A stretch of DNA of 44,352 bases, from assembly GCA_024403275.1 (NCBI GenBank), contig JAKSSD010000015.1, positions 1 through 44,352 of the forward strand, written 5' to 3'. Source of the DNA: Lachnospiraceae bacterium. Lineage in GTDB: Bacteria; Bacillota; Clostridia; Lachnospirales; Lachnospiraceae. Under the pieces are notes generated by a model. That model saw only the letters and a list, made by a program, of their open reading frames with translations. It searched no databases and was not told the DNA's origin. The first letter of the stretch is position 1, and the number at the start of each line of letters is the position of its first letter. The position numbers and the translations under genes are program-made. Positions 4,759 to 21,275 of the stretch are shown one piece after another.

Positions 4759-6753
4759 ATGATTTATTACGTTGATGCCAATGCACTTCGTGCTGGAAAT
4801 GGAAGCAAGGAAGCACCATTTAAATTAATTAATGATGCAGCCAAAATAGCAGTAGCTGGTGACGAGATTGTTGTAGCTGATGGTATTTACAGAGAATATG
4901 TAGACCCTGTAAATGCTGGTAGAGAGGATGCCAGAATTACTTATAGATCTGAAAATCCTTTGGGTGCAGTTATAACTGGTGGTGAAGTTATAAAAAACTG
5001 GCAGCAGTATCAAAAAGATGTATGGGTATGTAGAGTGCCTAACAGCTTATTTAACGGATATAATCCATATACAATTTTTGTATATGGTGACTGGTATTTT
5101 GCAAAGGCAGACAAGCATATTGGATGCGTATATGTAAATGATAAGGCACTTTACGAAGCTTCGTCACTTGAGGATGTGATTAAAGCAGAGATATATCCTT
5201 GCAGCTGGGTTCCAGAAGAATCAAAATATAAATGGTATACAACTCAGGATGAGGAAACAGACGAAACAATTATTTATGCTAATTTTAATGGCAAGAATCC
5301 AAATGAAGAGAATGTTGAAATTAATGTGAGAAGAAGATGTTTCTTCCCAACAAAGACAGGTGTTAACTATATTACAGTGACTGGATTTAACATTAATAAA
5401 GCAGCGACTAACTGGGCACCACCTGCCGCTTTTCAGGAGGGAATGATTGGACCTCATTGGAGCAAGGGCTGGATTATTGAGGACTGCGAGATTTCTAATA
5501 GTAAATGTGCAGGTATTTCACTTGGTAAATATTTAGATCCGGAGAATGACCATTATTTCACATATAAATATTTCAAGAGCCCAACTCAGATGGAAAGAGA
5601 TGCTGTTTGCCGTGGTCAGTATCATGGCTGGCTTAAGGAAAATATTGGTGGTCACATAATCAGAAGAAATAATATTCATCACTGTGAGCAGGGTGGAATT
5701 ATCGGACGTATGGGTGGCGTATTCAGCTTGATTGAAGATAATCATATTCATCATATTAATAACATGATGGAACTTGGAGGAGCTGAAATCGCTGGTATCA
5801 AAATGCATGCAGCCATTGATGTAGTAATGAGAAGAAATTACATTCATCATTGCACAATGGGTATCTGGTGTGACTGGGAAGCTCAGGGTACAAGAATCAC
5901 TCAGAATTTACTTCATGACAATCAGAAGCCTGCATTTTCTGAACGTCTTAAAGGCGGTATGATGAGTCAGGATTTATTCGTAGAAGTAAGTCACGGCCCA
6001 ACACTTGTTGATAATAACATTCTTCTTTCAGAAGTAAGTATGAGACTTGCAACTCAGTCAGTTGCTATGGTTCACAACTTGATTTGTGGCTCAATATCCT
6101 GCGTAGGAGCAGGTACAACATGGAGATACACTCCATATCATATGCCACATAGAACAGAAGTTATGGGATTTATGACTATTCTTCATGGTGATGACAGATT
6201 CTATAATAATATATTCGTACAGAAATGGGATTCAGCAGATGTTGAGATTCCAAATGATAACAGAGATTTTATTGAAATAGAGAACCGTGTAGCAGGAACA
6301 GGTGTATTTGACGGATTCCCTAATGAGAAGGAATGGCTTGATCAGTTTGATTTTACTAAGCCTGCTAATATGGCTGAGCTTGAACCAGTTCATTTTGGAT
6401 ATCTTCCAGTATGGACAGAAGGTAATGCATATCTTAATGGTGCAAAGGCTTGTTGCAAGGAAGTAAATGCATTTGTAAATGATGCAGCAGACATCAAGGT
6501 TGAACTTGTAGAGAAAGATGGAAGTCTTTATCTTGATACTAATATCTATGATGTTATCGGAGAATTTGAGAACAGAATGGTCAATTCAGATATTCTTGGT
6601 AACGCATTTGAGCCACAGCAGAGATTTGAAAGTGCTGATGGAACTGAAATAATATTTGATAAAGACTATTTCGATGAGCATCGTGGAGCAAAGGTAATTC
6701 CTGGACCACTTGCCGACAAGAAAGATTTATGTAAACCAGTATACACGTTTTAA
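4759..6753 (+). CDS. GH120-type beta-xylosidase (right-handed beta-helix)
   Basis: This 664-residue protein without a signal peptide matches what I know of family GH120, typified by the Thermoanaerobacterium beta-xylosidase. It has an N-terminal beta-helix start (YVDANALRAGNGSKEAPFK), the block W-APPAAFQEGMIGPHWSKGW, and the two active-site blocks CDWEAQGTR and FVEVSHGP. By analogy, Asp372 would be the nucleophile and Glu409 the acid/base. Between them about 14 extra residues (ERLKGGMMSQ region) are present relative to the reference spacing I remember. It should cleave xylo-oligosaccharides in the cytoplasm. ATG 4759 is chosen because GGAGG sits 8 bases upstream; an in-frame ATG at 4723 lacks a site. 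It is a single gene closed by a terminator. Confidence 0.85.
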   Translation: MIYYVDANALRAGNGSKEAPFKLINDAAKIAVAGDEIVVADGIYREYVDPVNAGREDARITYRSENPLGAVITGGEVIKNWQQYQKDVWVCRVPNSLFNGYNPYTIFVYGDWYFAKADKHIGCVYVNDKALYEASSLEDVIKAEIYPCSWVPEESKYKWYTTQDEETDETIIYANFNGKNPNEENVEINVRRRCFFPTKTGVNYITVTGFNINKAATNWAPPAAFQEGMIGPHWSKGWIIEDCEISNSKCAGISLGKYLDPENDHYFTYKYFKSPTQMERDAVCRGQYHGWLKENIGGHIIRRNNIHHCEQGGIIGRMGGVFSLIEDNHIHHINNMMELGGAEIAGIKMHAAIDVVMRRNYIHHCTMGIWCDWEAQGTRITQNLLHDNQKPAFSERLKGGMMSQDLFVEVSHGPTLVDNNILLSEVSMRLATQSVAMVHNLICGSISCVGAGTTWRYTPYHMPHRTEVMGFMTILHGDDRFYNNIFVQKWDSADVEIPNDNRDFIEIENRVAGTGVFDGFPNEKEWLDQFDFTKPANMAELEPVHFGYLPVWTEGNAYLNGAKACCKEVNAFVNDAADIKVELVEKDGSLYLDTNIYDVIGEFENRMVNSDILGNAFEPQQRFESADGTEIIFDKDYFDEHRGAKVIPGPLADKKDLCKPVYTF

Positions 6754-16084: not shown

Positions 16085-16117
16085 AGGCGCTTCTTTATAT
16101 AAGAGGCGCCTATTTTT
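16085..16117 (+). terminator. Rho-independent terminator
   Basis: AGGCGCTTCT (16085-16094) pairs with AGAGGCGCCT (16102-16111), followed by ATTTTT. It separates the AIM24-like gene from the cysteine operon. Confidence 0.9.
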
Positions 16118-16192
16118 ATGTTAAGAATTTATATAGAGACAATAAGTTTAAATTTGAGAAAATAAAAAATATAAAAAATTTAACAATTCCTA

Positions 16193-16221
16193 TTGACATA
16201 GTAGGAAAAGTAGGATATAGT
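16193..16221 (+). promoter_or_regulatory. Strong sigma-A promoter of the cysteine operon
   Basis: TTGACA (16193-16198), 17-base spacer, TATAGT (16216-16221). Transcription should start near 16228 and run into the leader open frame at 16255. Confidence 0.88.
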
Positions 16222-16254
16222 TTGAAACATCGAAAGGAAAGGAGATTATTGAAC

Positions 16255-16344
16255 ATGAAAAAATCTATGAGTTGTTTATATCTTAATAAAGATAGCATGT
16301 GTTGTTGCTTATGTCGAATGCGAAATTTAGGGCAAGTGAACTGA
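16255..16344 (+). CDS. Cys-rich 29-residue leader peptide (putative attenuator peptide)
   Basis: A 29-codon frame starts at ATG 16255, preceded by AAAGGAG at 16238-16244 (an in-frame TTG at 16249 is closer to the site). It encodes five cysteines, with UGU UGU UGC in tandem at 16300-16308 and another UGU at 16312, in the context MCCCLCRM. It lies directly after a strong promoter and before overlapping antiterminator and terminator stems. Placed ahead of a CjaA-like cysteine-type transporter and a C-S lyase, it is best explained as a sensor of charged Cys-tRNA, analogous to TrpL. No evidence can be given that the peptide itself acts. Confidence 0.75.
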   Translation: MKKSMSCLYLNKDSMCCCLCRMRNLGQVN

Positions 16345-16428
16345 CAGAGTGCGTAGATTTGTTGTCATGCACTCGATAATCTTTTTGATGAAAAGTCATT
16401 TGCCTGGATTGCTAATCCGGGCTTTTTT
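16331..16428 (+). promoter_or_regulatory. Cysteine attenuator: antiterminator/terminator switch
   Basis: GGCAAGTGA at 16331-16339, in the last codons of the leader frame, pairs over 9 positions (one G-U) with TCATTTGCC at 16396-16404. That stem uses the first 3 bases of the terminator's left arm (16402-16404), so the two are exclusive. A separate hairpin GAGTGC/GCACTC (16347-16352, 16369-16374) nests inside. A ribosome stalled at the Cys codons (16300-16314) would leave 16331-16339 free and allow read-through; one that reaches the stop at 16342 would cover it and let the terminator form. Confidence 0.72.
16402..16428 (+). terminator. Attenuator terminator before the SGNH hydrolase gene
   Basis: GCCTGGATT (16402-16410) and AATCCGGGC (16414-16422) form a 9-bp stem with a 3-base loop and a T6 tail. 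It lies 61 bases before the next gene, within the same transcription unit as the promoter at 16193. Confidence 0.88.
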
Positions 16429-16489: not shown

Positions 16490-17113
16490 ATGAAAAGAGT
16501 GTTGTGCTTTGGCGACTCAAATACATATGGTTATTCTCCATTTGATGGAACAAGGTTTCCTAAGGAAGTAAGATGGTCAGGAATTTTGGCTGACAGATTT
16601 TCAAAGGATGACGTACAGGTGATTGAAGAGGGTTTGGTTGGAAGAACCACAGTCTTCGAGGACAGCATTAGAGTTGGAAGAAAGGGTACAGATTTTCTTC
16701 TTCCTCTGATAGAAAGCCATTATCCAATTGATACACTTGTATTGATGCTTGGAACCAATGATTGTAAAACGATATACAAAGCATCGCCCTATATTATAGG
16801 TAGAGGAATTGAAATCCTGATTCAACAGGTTAAGGATTTTAATTCAAATATTAAGATTTTGCTGGTTTCTCCTATATTCTTAGGTGACAGAGTCTGGGAA
16901 GACGGCTTTGATCCAGAATTCAACGAAGAAGCAGTAGAAAAATCACATAAGCTTAAAGATGTCTACAAAGACATAGCGAATAAATACGGATGTTCATTCC
17001 TGGCAGCATCTGATTATGCGAATCCTTCAGAAGCAGATCAGGAACATATGAACGAAGAGGGACACAGAGCTCTCTCAAATGCAATTTATGAAAAACTAAT
17101 TAATGAAAAGTGA
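16490..17113 (+). CDS. SGNH/GDSL-type hydrolase
   Basis: This 207-residue cytoplasmic protein has all four SGNH blocks: GDSN with nucleophile Ser10, the glycine block GLVGRT (Gly48), GTND with Asn90, and DQEH with Asp183 and His186. It resembles arylesterase-like acylhydrolases. It is the first full gene after the cysteine attenuator; AAGGTGG precedes the ATG. The lipoprotein gene starts 11 bases after its stop. Its presence in this operon suggests a thioester or O-/S-acyl compound as substrate, but that is inference. Confidence 0.85.
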   Translation: MKRVLCFGDSNTYGYSPFDGTRFPKEVRWSGILADRFSKDDVQVIEEGLVGRTTVFEDSIRVGRKGTDFLLPLIESHYPIDTLVLMLGTNDCKTIYKASPYIIGRGIEILIQQVKDFNSNIKILLVSPIFLGDRVWEDGFDPEFNEEAVEKSHKLKDVYKDIANKYGCSFLAASDYANPSEADQEHMNEEGHRALSNAIYEKLINEK

Positions 17114-17124
17114 GGATAAAGATT

Positions 17125-17994
17125 ATGAAAAACAATTGGTTAAAGAAATTATTAGCAACTGTAGCAACTGTAGCTTTAGCAGGAAGCTTTTTAGTAGGTT
17201 GCGATTCAGCTGGTGGATCAACAGATAATACAAGTGGTGTTAAGTACAGAACTCTTGATGAGATTAAGGCAAGCGGAAAGATTAACATCGGTGTATTCTC
17301 AGATAAGAGTCCATTCGGATATGTAGATGAAAATGGTAAGTATGCAGGATATGATGTTTATTTTGCAGAGAAGATTGGTGAAGACCTTGGTGTTGAAATC
17401 AATTATGTATCAACAGAAGCTGCTAACAGAATTGAGTACCTTCAGACAGGTAAGGTTGATATTATCTTAGCTAACTTCACAGTAACTCCTGAAAGAGCTG
17501 AAGAAGTTGATTTTGCTTTACCATACATGAACGTAGCTCTTGGTGTTGTATCACCTTCAGATGCAGTTATTACAAGTCTTGATGAGATTGGTGCAGATGA
17601 TGAAGTAATCGTTATTTCTGGTACAACAGCTGAAACATATCTTACAAAGAATTATCCAAATATCAAGCTTCAGAAGTATGATGCTTATGCACAGGCTAAG
17701 ACAGCATTCGAAAACAGAAATGGTGTTGCTTGGGCTAACGATAATACAGAAGTTATCGCATTTGCAATTGAGAACGAAGGATATACAGTAGGAATTCCTT
17801 CTCTTGGTGATCAGGATACAATTGCTCCAGCAGTAACAAAGGGTAATGAAACATTACTTAAGTGGTTAAATGATGAAATCGTTGCTATCGGTGCAGATAA
17901 TTTCTTCCATGCAGATTATGAAGCAACATTACTTGATACATATGGCTCAGATTACGAGGATGAACTTGTAGTAGAAAGCGGTATCGTAAAATAA
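17125..17994 (+). CDS. CjaA-like cysteine/amino-acid ABC transporter substrate-binding lipoprotein
   Basis: This 289-residue protein has a lipoprotein signal peptide with lipobox LVGC and lipidated Cys26. The mature part is a family 3 periplasmic-type binding protein: INIGVFSDKSPFGYVDENGKYAGYD, EAANRIEYLQTGKVDIILANFT, TPERAEEVDFALPYM and ISGTTAETYL. These blocks closely match what I recall of Campylobacter CjaA, a cysteine-binding protein, so cysteine is the most likely ligand. The start is the ATG 8 bases after GAGG (17112-17115); in-frame codons from 17110 are rejected. The signal-peptide cysteine is outside the membrane. Cys preference agrees with the leader peptide upstream. Confidence 0.88.
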   Translation: MKNNWLKKLLATVATVALAGSFLVGCDSAGGSTDNTSGVKYRTLDEIKASGKINIGVFSDKSPFGYVDENGKYAGYDVYFAEKIGEDLGVEINYVSTEAANRIEYLQTGKVDIILANFTVTPERAEEVDFALPYMNVALGVVSPSDAVITSLDEIGADDEVIVISGTTAETYLTKNYPNIKLQKYDAYAQAKTAFENRNGVAWANDNTEVIAFAIENEGYTVGIPSLGDQDTIAPAVTKGNETLLKWLNDEIVAIGADNFFHADYEATLLDTYGSDYEDELVVESGIVK

Positions 17995-18017: not shown

Positions 18018-18677
18018 ATGGATATAAAAGTACTTATTGATTATCTGCCTTTGTATAAGGAAGCACTTTTATTAACATTAAAAATTGGATGGCTCGGTAT
18101 ATTAGCAGCGCTTGTGATTGGTATTGCAGGCGCTGCCATCTTGCATTTTAAAATACCTGTTTTAAAGCAGATATTCGGAGTCTATATTGAAATATTCAGA
18201 AACACACCATTATTGGTTCAATTATTTTTTATTTACTTTGCTTTACCAAAGATTGGAATAAAAATCAGTGCTGAAATGTGTGGTGTTCTTGGACTTGGAC
18301 TTCTGGGTGGAGCTTATATGATTGAGACATTTAGAAGTGGACTTGAATCTATAGCAAAGATTCAGACAGAGAGTGCGCTCAGTCTTGGAATGACAAAAGG
18401 ACAGGTATTAGTTCATATTATCCTGCCACAGGCACTTTCAATCAGTGTGCCTGGTATTCTGGCAAACTTAATTTTCCTTCTCAAAGAAACATCAGTGTTC
18501 TCAACTATCAGTTTGATGGACCTTATGTTTACAGCAAAAGATTTGATTGGTATGTATGCTAAGACTATTGAATGTCTTTTCATGCTTGTTGTTTTCTATT
18601 TGATTATGCTGCTTCCGGTGTCTATAATCGGTTCAATTATAGAAAGGAGGGTACGTTATGCAGAGTTTGGGGATTGA
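18018..18677 (+). CDS. Amino-acid ABC transporter permease 1
   Basis: This 219-residue polar-amino-acid permease of the HisM/GlnP type has about five membrane helices, the EIFRNTPLLVQLFFIYFALP segment and the EAA loop (ESALSLGMTKGQVLVHIILPQAL) that contacts the ATPase. It starts 23 bases after the lipoprotein gene with AGAGGAC as its ribosome site, and its end overlaps the second permease by 20 bases. It should form a heterodimer with that permease. Confidence 0.9.
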   Translation: MDIKVLIDYLPLYKEALLLTLKIGWLGILAALVIGIAGAAILHFKIPVLKQIFGVYIEIFRNTPLLVQLFFIYFALPKIGIKISAEMCGVLGLGLLGGAYMIETFRSGLESIAKIQTESALSLGMTKGQVLVHIILPQALSISVPGILANLIFLLKETSVFSTISLMDLMFTAKDLIGMYAKTIECLFMLVVFYLIMLLPVSIIGSIIERRVRYAEFGD

Positions 18678-19332
18678 TGTATTATTCAAAGGAACCAATA
18701 TGCTACGACTTCTCCAGGGATTATGGGTATCTGTAGCAATCAGTTTGATTTCAGTAGCTTTTAGTATTGTTCTTGGTTTTATTGTGGGTGTATTAATGAC
18801 CTCAGAAAATAAAATCATTAAGGCTATACTTAGAGTATATCTTGAAATCGTAAGAATTATGCCTCAGATGGTTCTTTTATTTATAGTTTACTTTGGAACC
18901 ACACGAGTATTTGGTTGGAATTTATCGGCAGAGGTTTCTGCGATTATTGTATTTATTTTCTGGGGAACTGCTGAAATGGGCGATCTTGTAAGAGGATCAC
19001 TTAAGAGTATTCCAGTCATTCAGTATGAATCGGCTAAAGCCTTGGGACTTAATAATTTTCAGGTGTATTTCCATATTATAGTTCCACAGACAATACGAAG
19101 ATTAATACCTTTATCAATTAACCTTATTACAAGAATGGTTAAGACAACATCTTTGGTTATGATGATTGGTATTGTTGAAGTATTGAAGGTAGCACAACAG
19201 ATTATTGAAGCAAACAGAAAGGCTTCACCGAATGCGGCATTTGGCGTATTTTTGGTAGTATTTATTCTTTATTTCTTAATTTGTTGGCCAGTAAGCAGAC
19301 TTGCGAAGATTCTTGAAAAGAGGTGGGCATAA
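18658..19332 (+). CDS. Amino-acid ABC transporter permease 2
   Basis: This 224-residue permease is paralogous to the preceding one, with EIVRIMPQMVLLFIVYFGT and the EAA loop ESAKALGLNNFQVYFHIIVP. The ribosome site AAGGAGGG lies inside the end of the preceding gene, 20 bases of which overlap. In CjaA-like systems two permeases and one ATPase form the membrane complex. Confidence 0.9.
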   Translation: MQSLGIDVLFKGTNMLRLLQGLWVSVAISLISVAFSIVLGFIVGVLMTSENKIIKAILRVYLEIVRIMPQMVLLFIVYFGTTRVFGWNLSAEVSAIIVFIFWGTAEMGDLVRGSLKSIPVIQYESAKALGLNNFQVYFHIIVPQTIRRLIPLSINLITRMVKTTSLVMMIGIVEVLKVAQQIIEANRKASPNAAFGVFLVVFILYFLICWPVSRLAKILEKRWA

Positions 19333-20076
19333 ATGAGCGAACTTTTAAAGGTAGAACATTTACACAAAGAATTTGATAAAAATGTTGTAATTAAAGATAT
19401 GGATCTCACAGTTAAAAAAGGTGAGGTTGTAGTTATCATTGGCCCATCAGGTTGTGGTAAAAGTACATTTTTAAGATGCTTAAATGGGCTTGAAGAGATT
19501 CAGGGCGGAAGCATCACAGTAGATGGTTCTTTAGTTGAACCTAAGAAAAAGGATATTATTAAAATCAGACAGAAGGTGGGAATGGTATTTCAGTCATATG
19601 AGCTTTTCCCACATAAGACAGTGCTTGATAATATAATTCTTGCTCCAATGAAGGTGCAAAAAAGAAATAAGGCAGAGGTTACCAAGGAAGCTTTAGAATT
19701 ACTTGAAAAGGTTGGCCTCTCAGAGAAGAAGAATTTCTATCCAAGACAGTTATCTGGTGGACAAAAACAGCGAGTAGCTATTGTAAGAGCACTTTGCATG
19801 CATCCAGAAGTTCTTTTATTTGATGAAGTAACTGCTGCACTTGATCCAGAAATGGTTCATGAAGTTTTAGAGACAATGATTGAGTTAGCAAAATCAGGTT
19901 CAACAATGCTTATTGTTACTCATGAAATGGCATTTGCAAGAGCAATTGCTGACAGAATTGTATTTCTTGATCAGGGAGAAATTGTCGAAGAAACAGATAA
20001 GGTTAAGGAGTTCTTTGATCATCCGCAGACTGAAAGAGCACAGAAATTCCTTAAGACATTTACATTCGATGAATAA
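19333..20076 (+). CDS. Amino-acid ABC transporter ATP-binding protein
   Basis: This 247-residue ATPase has Walker A GPSGCGKST (residues 37-45), Q-loop VFQSYELFP, signature LSGGQKQRVAIVRAL and Walker B VLLFDEVTAALDPE. The DEVTAALD form, instead of DEPTSALD, is a known variant of the polar-amino-acid group. The H-loop is VTHEMAFAR. It starts immediately after the permease stop, with AAAAGAGGTGGGC before the ATG. Confidence 0.93.
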   Translation: MSELLKVEHLHKEFDKNVVIKDMDLTVKKGEVVVIIGPSGCGKSTFLRCLNGLEEIQGGSITVDGSLVEPKKKDIIKIRQKVGMVFQSYELFPHKTVLDNIILAPMKVQKRNKAEVTKEALELLEKVGLSEKKNFYPRQLSGGQKQRVAIVRALCMHPEVLLFDEVTAALDPEMVHEVLETMIELAKSGSTMLIVTHEMAFARAIADRIVFLDQGEIVEETDKVKEFFDHPQTERAQKFLKTFTFDE

Positions 20077-20084
20077 TTTATACT

Positions 20085-21275
20085 ATGGCTATATTTGATT
20101 TTGACAAAGAGGTAAACAGAAAAAATACAGGAGCGATTAAATTTGACTGGGATGTCAAAATGGGTAAGGAAGGACTTATTCCACTCTGGGTTGCTGATAT
20201 GGATTTTGAAACTCCTGATTTTATTATTGATGCTATTAAAGAAAGAGCATCACAGGGTGTTTTTGGTTATACAGAGCCACTTGATGATTACTACGAAGCT
20301 GTTATAGATTGGTTTAAAAGAAATCATAACTGGTCAATTGATAAAGAAGCCATACTTACTGCTCCAGGAGTTGTATATGCACTTACTATAGCAATAGAAG
20401 CATTTACCAAGCCAGGAGATGCTATTATTATTCAGGAGCCTGTTTATTATCTTTTTAGAAAAATGAGTGCTCATAATAATAGAAAAGTAGTTAATTCAGA
20501 GCTTCTATATAAAGAAGGTCAATATGAAATGAATCTTGACGATTTTGAGAAAAAAATTGTTGAGAACAACGTTAAAATGTATATTCTTTGTAATCCCCAC
20601 AATCCAGGAGGAAGAGTTTGGACAAAGGATGAGCTGATTGCGGTAGGTAATATTTGTAAGAATCATAATGTTTTGGTATTTGCAGATGAGATTCACTGCG
20701 ATTTGACCTATGAAGGTCATGATTATACACCATTTGCCAGCATATCAGAAGAATTTGCAAACTTTTCGGTAGCTGGAACTTCAGCCAGCAAATCTTTTAA
20801 TCTTGCGGGATTACAACTTTCCAATACTATTATTCACAATAAAGAATTACGAGATAAATATAAGAAGGCCTTTGACGCTTCTGGTTATTCTGAACCATCT
20901 ATTTTTGGAGTTGTTGCTACAAAAGCTGCCTATACTAAAGGCGATGAATGGTTAAAAGAAGCAAAAGAGTACATAAAAGGAAATATTGATTTCGTTAAAA
21001 ATTATATTGATGACAATATTCCTGGCGTGGAAATGATGGTTCCACAAGGAACTTACCTTGTATGGCTTGATTTCAGTAAGATAAGTGATAATTATCGTGA
21101 GATTGAGAATCTTATTGAAAAGAAAGCAAAGCTATGGCTTGATTCAGGCCTTATGTTCGGGCATTCTGGAAGATTGTGGCAACGTATAAATGTAGCCTGC
21201 CCAAGAAGCATTGTAGAAAAAGCTATGAATCAATTAGCCTTCGCGGTAAATGAATACATGAAAAATGAAATGTAA
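20085..21275 (+). CDS. MalY/PatB-type PLP C-S lyase (cystathionine/cysteine lyase)
   Basis: This 396-residue class-II PLP enzyme shows LWVADMDF, the FGYTEP block, CNPHNPGGRVWTKDEL, FADEIHCDL and the PLP-binding SASKSFNLAGLQ with Lys236. These blocks are typical of the MalY/PatB branch, which cleaves the C-S bond of cystathionine or cysteine to thiol, ammonia and pyruvate. It starts 8 bases after the ATPase gene without a clear ribosome site, so it is probably coupled. The context of a cysteine transporter and Cys attenuator supports a role in cysteine breakdown or interconversion; ordinary aminotransferase activity is the alternative. Confidence 0.9.
   Translation: MAIFDFDKEVNRKNTGAIKFDWDVKMGKEGLIPLWVADMDFETPDFIIDAIKERASQGVFGYTEPLDDYYEAVIDWFKRNHNWSIDKEAILTAPGVVYALTIAIEAFTKPGDAIIIQEPVYYLFRKMSAHNNRKVVNSELLYKEGQYEMNLDDFEKKIVENNVKMYILCNPHNPGGRVWTKDELIAVGNICKNHNVLVFADEIHCDLTYEGHDYTPFASISEEFANFSVAGTSASKSFNLAGLQLSNTIIHNKELRDKYKKAFDASGYSEPSIFGVVATKAAYTKGDEWLKEAKEYIKGNIDFVKNYIDDNIPGVEMMVPQGTYLVWLDFSKISDNYREIENLIEKKAKLWLDSGLMFGHSGRLWQRINVACPRSIVEKAMNQLAFAVNEYMKNEM

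Follow-up and report, generated by a model that had tools for sequence, protein, structure and literature searches.

A predicted cysteine-responsive transcription attenuator ahead of a transporter operon in a Lachnospiraceae bacterium, and its relatives in other Bacillota

The leader locus lies at positions 16193-16428 on the forward strand of a contig from a Lachnospiraceae bacterium (GCA_024403275.1, JAKSSD010000015.1), the whole 44,352-nt stretch of which is referred to here as the window. The gene upstream has its own terminator at 16085-16111, and the elements of the leader and the genes of the operon that follows are collected in Table 1. An earlier reading made from the sequence alone (the sequence-only reading) had placed a sigma-A promoter ahead of the leader frame; the TTGACA-17-TATAGT element is present and has the top score among 24 promoter-like sites between 15000 and 19500, and as shuffled sequences average 17.7 such sites, it is distinguished by its score only. 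The predicted transcript start is ~27 nt upstream of the ATG at 16255, which is preceded by AGGAG. By eye, an inverted repeat (CCTATTGAC...GTAGG, 16189-16214) overlaps the -35 element, and similar repeats (also AATAGGT) occur in loci L044 (~5262-5292), L081 (~5235-5265) and L121 (~4990-5020). The repeat is found in operons with and without the attenuator, and we take it to be probably a repressor operator, for which an Rrf2/CymR-like protein is perhaps a candidate.

Table 1. Positions of leader elements and operon genes in the window.
Feature	Position	Strand	Basis
Sigma-A type promoter, TTGACA N17 TATAGT	16193-16221	+	11/12 consensus matches
Segment 0, leader ribosome-binding site and spacer, complementary over 14 nt to 16373-16386	16239-16252	+	own-versus-cross test, 63 leaders
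Leader ORF MKKSMSCLYLNKDSMCCCLCRMRNLGQVN, 29 codons plus stop (ATG 16255, TGA to 16344)	16255-16344	+	sequence, R1 family member
Putative regulatory Cys codons	TGT TGT TGC 16300-16308; TGT 16312-16314; further TGT 16273-16275	+	
Segment 2, antiterminator 5' half, GGGCAAGTGA	16330-16339	+	sequence, covariation, folding
Inner hairpin, segment 4 GAGTGC (16347-16352) with segment 5 GCACTC (16369-16374)	16347-16374	+	covariation, folding
Partner of ribosome-binding-site helix (pairs with 16239-16252)	16373-16386	+	own-versus-cross test, folding
Segment 6, antiterminator 3' half, TCATTTGCCT	16396-16405	+	sequence, covariation, folding
Intrinsic terminator (stem 16402-16422, 9 pairs, 3-nt loop, then T6)	16402-16428	+	
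GDSL/SGNH hydrolase gene, first after attenuator	16490-17113	+	PF13472, E 1.5e-19
ABC transporter substrate-binding protein (SBP), family 3	17125-17994	+	family-model matches
ABC transporter permease	18018-18677	+	
ABC transporter permease	18658-19332	+	
ABC transporter ATPase, closest to TcyN	19333-20076	+	302 bits, under cut-off of 406
PatB-family C-S lyase	20085-21275	+	TIGR04350, 441 bits, cut-off 340

The operon was described earlier as a CjaA-like cysteine-type transporter followed by a MalY/PatB lyase. The lyase is of the PatB type, scoring above the cut-off of its family model, and the transporter is an ABC system with a family-3 SBP; the specificity for cysteine is only suggested by the sequence, as the best NCBIfam match of the SBP is to a lysine/arginine/ornithine subfamily (100 bits) with cystine at 77 bits, both below cut-off. 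The transporter is not directly below the attenuator, an SGNH hydrolase gene overlooked in that description being the first gene. In three members of the genus (G019:C36, G004:C129 and G026:C254) an SGNH hydrolase gene is located several kb after the SBP gene, and in loci L044, L081 and L121 there is no room for a leader between a promoter-like site and the SGNH gene. The window operon is probably devoted to sulfur amino-acid transport.

The predicted leader peptide has 29 residues and five Cys (codons 7, 16-18 and 20), four of them within five codons, in agreement with the 29-codon frame bearing UGU UGU UGC and another UGU that had been reported; it runs from 16255 to 16344. It is the one ORF of 10-60 residues in the window with at least four Cys in five codons; 60 Markov-simulated windows contain on average 0.1 such Cys-dense ORFs, with a maximum of 1. 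The Cys-rich frame alone is unusual and not decisive, the decisive evidence being comparative. That the frame arose by chance within an unremarkable terminator region separating two operons, as the terminator of the upstream gene and the possibility of a Cys run arising by chance (0.1 per simulated window) would allow, is in our view refuted by the independent match to a covariance model and by the comparative tests described below, and we consider it scarcely credible.

The final codons of the frame and the terminator are connected by complementarity. As originally proposed, GGCAAGTGA at 16331-16339 is complementary to 16396-16404 at 9/9 positions, including one G-U pair, and the strong T6 terminator said to be overlapped by this pairing has a 9-pair stem, of which just the first 3-4 nt of the left arm are shared. 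Two further elements, both missed by the sequence-only reading, are an inner hairpin enclosed by the antiterminator and a helix that would hide the leader ribosome-binding site.

These elements recur in other genomes. A covariance model (R1) was constructed from 28 leaders of other genomes with the window excluded, and when searched up to E 10 it matches the window only at 16300-16428 (E 3.8e-7); at 36.5 bits, the window leader is a divergent copy. Because R1 includes the Cys-codon columns, Cys conservation among its matches is partly by construction. Covariation was analyzed in two alignments. Alignment A1, produced by MAFFT without reference to structure and again without the window, contains 28 of 33 core-carrying leaders (L112 and L120 were omitted for their length and L128, L134 and L137 as near-duplicates; L054, L130 and the loci with MCMCMMCC leaders had been set aside beforehand). 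In A1, 97.0% of the cells in the antiterminator and inner hairpin are paired and 8 of 16 pairs are changed on both sides; none of 500 shuffles reaches any of five measures, and sliding the partner reduces pairing to 24-55%. Counting only the antiterminator, pairing is 98.9%, and 6 of 10 pairs show changes on both sides. Alignment A3 comprises 63 leaders including the window, aligned to R1 and thus leaning towards the model; it omits L212, L089 (both strands), the near-duplicates L061, L093, L098 and L136, and the later R1 matches L055, L068, L071, L082, L096 and L114, among which only L114 was read. Here 96.7% of cells are paired, 14 of 16 pairs are compensatory (46 cells), and 0/500 shuffles match the data on all five measures, the shuffles and permutations in these tests leaving the relatedness among leaders in place.

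Terminators with T-runs are visible in the alignments, and the arms also prefer the partners with which they occur. Across the 63 leaders, the duplex energy of the antiterminator is -24.5 kcal/mol for own and -22.1 kcal/mol for cross pairs, and that of the terminator arms -15.3 versus -13.4 kcal/mol, each difference being reached in 0 of 20000 permutations. The own antiterminator partner is best in just 6 of 63 rows (median rank 16); in the case of the window, it is equalled or bettered by 7 of the 62 3' arms and 18 of the 62 5' arms taken from other leaders. Leader starts in the own-versus-cross, geometry and folding tests were assigned automatically, and a few are visibly incorrect (for example those of L083, L105 and L130). 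The proposed check for compensatory changes in both stems yielded such changes in the antiterminator and a preference for own partners in both the antiterminator and the terminator arms. Two other candidate off-state helices are unsupported: a CGAATG:CATTCG helix lacks covariation, and a pairing between segment 2 and the RNA that follows it is equalled in 5859 of 20000 permutations. Downstream of the Cys cluster, the codons CGA ATG are near-invariant at the nucleotide level and have no co-varying partner (A1 columns 16-21); CGA TGT followed by a stop codon closes several leader tails (L239, L242, L245 and L246).

Conservation is also visible in the peptide, whose core C-R-M-x-x-S-R-A is kept in many leaders over a wide taxonomic range, as would be expected if the ORF encoded a working small Cys-rich protein (e.g. 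metal- or redox-binding) and the RNA pairing were incidental. We regard this as highly improbable, as it is the antiterminator arm, co-varying with the terminator, that encodes the S-R-A residues, and the window lacks S-R-A yet keeps the pairing with other letters. Moreover, the distance from segment 2 to the end of the ORF varies between 7 and 69 nt (58 of 63 leaders having at least 30 nt), and the Cys-rich frames sit ahead of a terminator. A GQV likeness between the window and the larger group was taken for coincidence; the pairing-equivalent segment is S-R-A.

The window operon has relatives in which the leader could be followed. Scanning genome contigs with the window SBP, we kept the best 80 of 511 loci, 24 of which carry a leader ORF with the Cys-Arg-Met core pattern; typical peptides of the relatives are MYRTNTSYESIMCCSRMLFSRAYQYGQVHSSALCCTDV. 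R1 matches 32 of the 80 transporter loci at E<=1e-3 (35 matches, some elsewhere in the locus), and at this threshold 48, some with little upstream DNA, have no match. A leader-like ORF ~1.5 kb upstream in L054 was dropped, and it has no significant R1 match. Within the genus of the window, the SBP is present in 18 of 31 genomes, its own included (E<=1e-60), and a Cys-rich short ORF is located within 1000 nt upstream in 18/18 and within 600 nt in 17/18 of these loci; a control run for the 600-nt distance found such an ORF in 155 of 2000 random 600-nt stretches from L044-L123. Cys codons upstream of the transporter, whose conservation was suggested earlier as a check, are thereby found at all 18 genus loci with the transporter gene, and all 63 aligned leaders contain Cys.

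The genus leaders are of more than one type. Twelve of the 18 carry the Cys-Arg-Met pattern, five are of the MCMCMMCC type, and one (L125) is short and by eye has no terminator. Leaders of the MCMCMMCC type are unmatched by R1 at E<=0.01; in 4 of 5 the stretch after the Cys codons has 10-13 positions complementary to the left side of the terminator, the longest complementary run in L138 being 8 and located elsewhere. For these five leaders own duplex energies are no better than cross (the own pair of L131 is the worst of five), and that they represent a second solution of like kind is only a suggestion. Other search routes contributed little: direct search with the leader peptide in the genus gave weak matches only besides the window, leader DNA had no match in a phage collection, and the bare Cys codon pattern was too common to be a search tool (119 of 250 genomes). 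ORFs encoding RRMKDGQVFF, considered as Cys-less leaders, were rejected as a shifted frame inside the SGNH gene.

The sequence-only reading had named relatives without Cys codons or without the pairing element as evidence against it. Some relatives are of this kind, namely the 48 unmatched transporter loci and two leaders before metY that keep the architecture, one on the minus strand of L089 (5070-5207) with no Cys in its head (RSGRM) and a near-loss in L114 (4411-4564) with one Cys codon (RCGRM). Both metY leaders are GC-rich relatives. The plus strand of L089 contains a strong R1 match (84 bits).

Whole-genome searches with R1 used strict filters, a model from one operon type and genome sets that include the window's own, and their counts are consequently lower bounds. 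In the order, R1 matches at least 26 of 392 genomes (E<=0.01); the matches number 34, a single genome having as many as four. The class sample gave at least 13 of 391 and the phylum sample at least 5 of 398 genomes (E<=0.001). Good matches in the order fall in three families (f1, f8 and f17), a match in f19 being the doubtful L212, and those outside the order fall in four families of the class sample and, outside the class, in two families of the phylum sample. We took L212, a 25-bit match ahead of an AI-2E transporter, to be a false positive. Named carriers include Butyrivibrio fibrisolvens 16/4 (L081), Butyrivibrio sp. AE3009 (L061), Pseudobutyrivibrio sp. 49 (L055), an uncultured Roseburia (L118) and Candidatus Blautia equi (L105).

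The genes that follow the leaders agree with the target pathway claimed for the window, as the contexts elsewhere are mostly sulfur amino-acid genes. Two of the 34 order matches run off contig ends and L212 is probably false, leaving 31 that can be judged, the window among them; in 29 of these metY, cysK, metQ/metN, the transporter found in the window, a cystathionine lyase or metK lies within the first two ORFs of at least 90 codons after the leader. Most gene names were assigned by blastp against references named by NCBIfam or Pfam (the metY of L191 at 40% identity). In L203, cysK-like genes are third and fourth, after a PepT-like gene. By the same comparison, 15 further matches in the class and 3 in the phylum precede metY, cysK, metQ, a cystathionine lyase or this transporter. 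The leader of L209 (6027-6169, minus strand) precedes metK together with NifH-like and nitrogenase-component-1-like genes, and that of L211 (497-651) a LysR regulator gene with NifH-like and nitrogenase-component-1-like genes; we presume that these nitrogenase-like operons are possibly of the methylthio-alkane reductase type of sulfur salvage. A molybdenum cofactor riboswitch (RF01055) at 467-634 of L058 is unconnected to the leader.

Some contexts bear on which amino acid is read. Four leaders with metN as the first gene are Met-rich (MCMRRM) and have few Cys before RM, with 5-6 Met and 1 Cys in L193, L081 and L198 and 4 Met and 2 Cys in L207, as compared to averages of 1.3 Met and 3.2 Cys in 33 transporter-classed leaders; several genus leaders alternate Met and Cys (MCMCM). 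The family might accordingly sense sulfur amino acids broadly, with both Met and Cys codons regulatory and the codon content tuned to the operon below. We hold this to be possible, with odds short of even: leaders with metQ first (L183 and L192) have 2-3 Met and 3 Cys, Met codons double as start codons and as part of the near-invariant CGAATG, and the four Met-rich leaders seem to be from Butyrivibrio/Pseudobutyrivibrio and hence perhaps reflect one event.

The Cys codons are positioned in a nearly fixed register relative to the RNA segments. At least one Cys codon precedes the CGA codon in 63/63 aligned leaders and at least two in 52/63; over the whole leader ORF, at least two Cys are present in 63/63 and at least three in 61/63. 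In 46/63, the Cys codon that most closely precedes segment 2 ends 11 nt ahead of it, and with the A site at -9, -6 and -3 from the CGA codon, Cys occupies the position in 73, 68 and 86% of the 63 leaders. This register weighs against a ligand- or protein-binding leader (a riboswitch, a T-box or the target of an RNA-binding protein) with an unimportant ORF, an idea that would suit the strong structure of the window RNA (z -3.2) and the near-invariant CGAATG, which no pairing that was tested explains. Rfam 15 yields no match at gathering thresholds in the window or in the leaders of 20 related loci, and T-box RF00230 has no match in the window at its gathering score; the genome has T-boxes elsewhere, none being at the window leader. 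We therefore judge such a leader very unlikely. The T-box matches in the window's own genome number six (C110, C92, C95, C119, C111 and C91), three of them over the cut-off.

The consequences of ribosome position for folding were computed by sliding a 31-nt footprint along each of the 63 leaders and folding the remainder at equilibrium. With the A site at -9 to -3, 6.2-6.8 antiterminator pairs are expected; the figure is 1.95 once the A site is on CGA and 0.0-0.6 over the next eleven codons (+3 to +33), where the terminator has ~8.7. As the antiterminator is lost from CGA on, the Cys codons are the last positions at which stalling frees the arm. Stalls upstream of the Cys cluster produce similar antitermination (5.5-7.0 expected pairs in the 63 leaders), and without a ribosome the terminator and antiterminator are equal (5.15 and 5.16 expected pairs); the scan thus sets the far boundary and does not give a peak. 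A ribosome at the stop codon leaves the terminator at 5.84 versus 3.84 for the antiterminator, which is ambiguous for the group of 63. Until segment 6 has been transcribed, about half of segment 2 is paired whatever the state (group means 0.51-0.68), with small differences, and in leaders with long tails, timing would have to do the switching. In the window, the stop codon is 2 nt after 16339, so that a terminating ribosome covers segment 2 directly.

For the window itself the outcome depends on how the RNA behind the ribosome is treated. When all RNA up to the front edge of the ribosome is masked, the antiterminator probability is 0.03-0.28 while any of codons 1-13 is in the A site, 0.43-0.73 for codons 14-22 (Cys at 16-18 and 20), 0.12 for codon 23 and 0.00 from codon 24 to the stop, and the terminator probability falls to 0.44-0.73 over codons 14-21. 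The lowest-energy structure keeps 9/9 terminator pairs except at codon 21 (5/9), and read-through therefore needs the order of co-transcriptional folding. When only the 31-nt footprint is masked, no switch occurs at any codon (terminator 0.96, antiterminator 0.00) because leader RNA behind the ribosome then pairs with the hairpin region. The upstream-masked treatment would be favoured by a trailing ribosome, or if a helix were hard to close round a ribosome.

A second conserved long-range helix joins the leader ribosome-binding site and spacer to RNA surrounding and following the inner hairpin. In the 63 leaders, own pairs have -15.9 and cross pairs -13.4 kcal/mol (0 of 20000 permutations), and the control pairing of the ribosome-binding site with segment 6 is null (15633 of 20000). 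The gain in uninterrupted pairing is modest (8.2 versus 7.4 pairs), and 5 of 63 leaders pair best with their own partner; the pairing of the window is bettered by no foreign 3' part. An example from L209 is GCAAGACAACAA with TTGTTGTCTTGC. As the helix would cross the antiterminator (a pseudoknot), we read it as part of the off state, in which it possibly limits repeated ribosome loading. In E. coli trpL, too, the leader ribosome-binding site pairs with a downstream segment in a similar manner.

We therefore favour, with a probability of about 85%, the reading of the window element as a ribosome-mediated transcription attenuator that would respond to charged tRNA-Cys. The genus survey, the compensatory changes, the matching of the arms and the sulfur gene contexts support the trp/his-type attenuator tuned to Cys that was originally proposed. 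Transcription would start near 16228 and a ribosome would load on the leader ORF. With ample Cys-tRNA, the ribosome would pass the Cys codons and reach the stop codon at 16342-16344 with its footprint on segment 2, so that segment 6 would be left free, the terminator stem would form and transcription would end before the operon. With scarce Cys-tRNA, it would stall on codons 16-20 with its front edge short of segment 2; the inner hairpin would form, segment 2 and the nascent segment 6 would pair, and the operon would be transcribed. Without a ribosome, the leader ribosome-binding site would be paired with 16373-16386, which fits an off state. On this reading, the Cys-rich leader would very likely gauge cysteine and so decide whether RNA polymerase reads on.

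Amino-acid starvation in Firmicutes is mostly sensed by T-boxes and repressors, and leader ORFs with regulatory codons are familiar from the trp (trpL) and his (hisL) operon attenuators of enterobacteria. The family described here shares with these the regulatory codons in a leader ORF, the mutually exclusive antiterminator and intrinsic terminator and the pathway genes below, and with the his attenuator the several alternative helices. It differs in its Cys codons, its occurrence in Bacillota, the inner hairpin within the antiterminator loop, the encoding of the antiterminator arm by S-R-A codons in most members and the reuse of one family at many operons.

The sequence-only reading named polycysteine leader frames in mycobacteria and no described Firmicutes case with this architecture. 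A literature search of mostly open articles, without preprints, likewise found no Cys leader in Bacillota, nor did a term search of PMC8040213 yield one; attenuators do exist for Cys outside Firmicutes, and for other amino acids in Firmicutes themselves. One of these is the uORFC-8-2 motif (PMC8632094), a predicted Cys attenuator upstream of cysS in Rhodobacterales, which like the present family has tandem Cys codons and an intrinsic terminator and is predicted to be ribosome-mediated. As described there, it belongs to Alphaproteobacteria, is associated with cysS only and has its Cys codons in the first stem, usually as codons 14-15, whereas cysS is not downstream in the window, nor is it among those genes after other leaders that were identified. 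According to PMC1262725, Cys leaders occur in Mycobacterium, Propionibacterium and Bifidobacterium (Actinobacteria), those of Mycobacterium having no conserved terminator hairpins and Cys runs near the stop codon, and the title of Canestrari 2020 presents mycobacterial polycysteine ORFs as leaderless and cysteine-responsive. These likewise have sulfur genes preceded by a short ORF with runs of Cys codons; the leaders here differ in that they possess a predicted ribosome-binding site, a Cys cluster inside the ORF and a terminator that is conserved. Among Gram-positive bacteria, attenuation by leader peptides is represented by His leader peptides of hisS/hisZ in bacilli (PMC2965389, whose authors knew of no earlier case beyond Proteobacteria and Actinobacteria) and by branched-chain amino acid attenuators reported in Listeria and Staphylococcus (PMC5864092, PMC5794164), which employ His, Ile or Leu codons and other genes. 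The mechanism class is thus already known, and the family and its sulfur regulon are apparently undescribed.

On a wider reading, which we offer tentatively and believe in less than we doubt, the leaders would form a modular family in at least two classes of Bacillota that serves as a general cysteine-starvation switch, occurring up to four times in a genome at operons for transport, for biosynthesis or of the nitrogenase-like (perhaps sulfur-salvage) kind, retuned to Met at metN operons by Cys-to-Met codon swaps and equipped with a lock that hides its own ribosome-binding site. If true, a peptide-based gauge of cysteine would operate across several orders, including rumen and gut Clostridia, and would offer a direct handle on the control of cysteine uptake and sulfur amino-acid metabolism in such anaerobes. 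It would also explain many overlooked small ORFs, and would provide a natural series in which to follow the movement of one regulatory scaffold between operons, and perhaps between amino acids.
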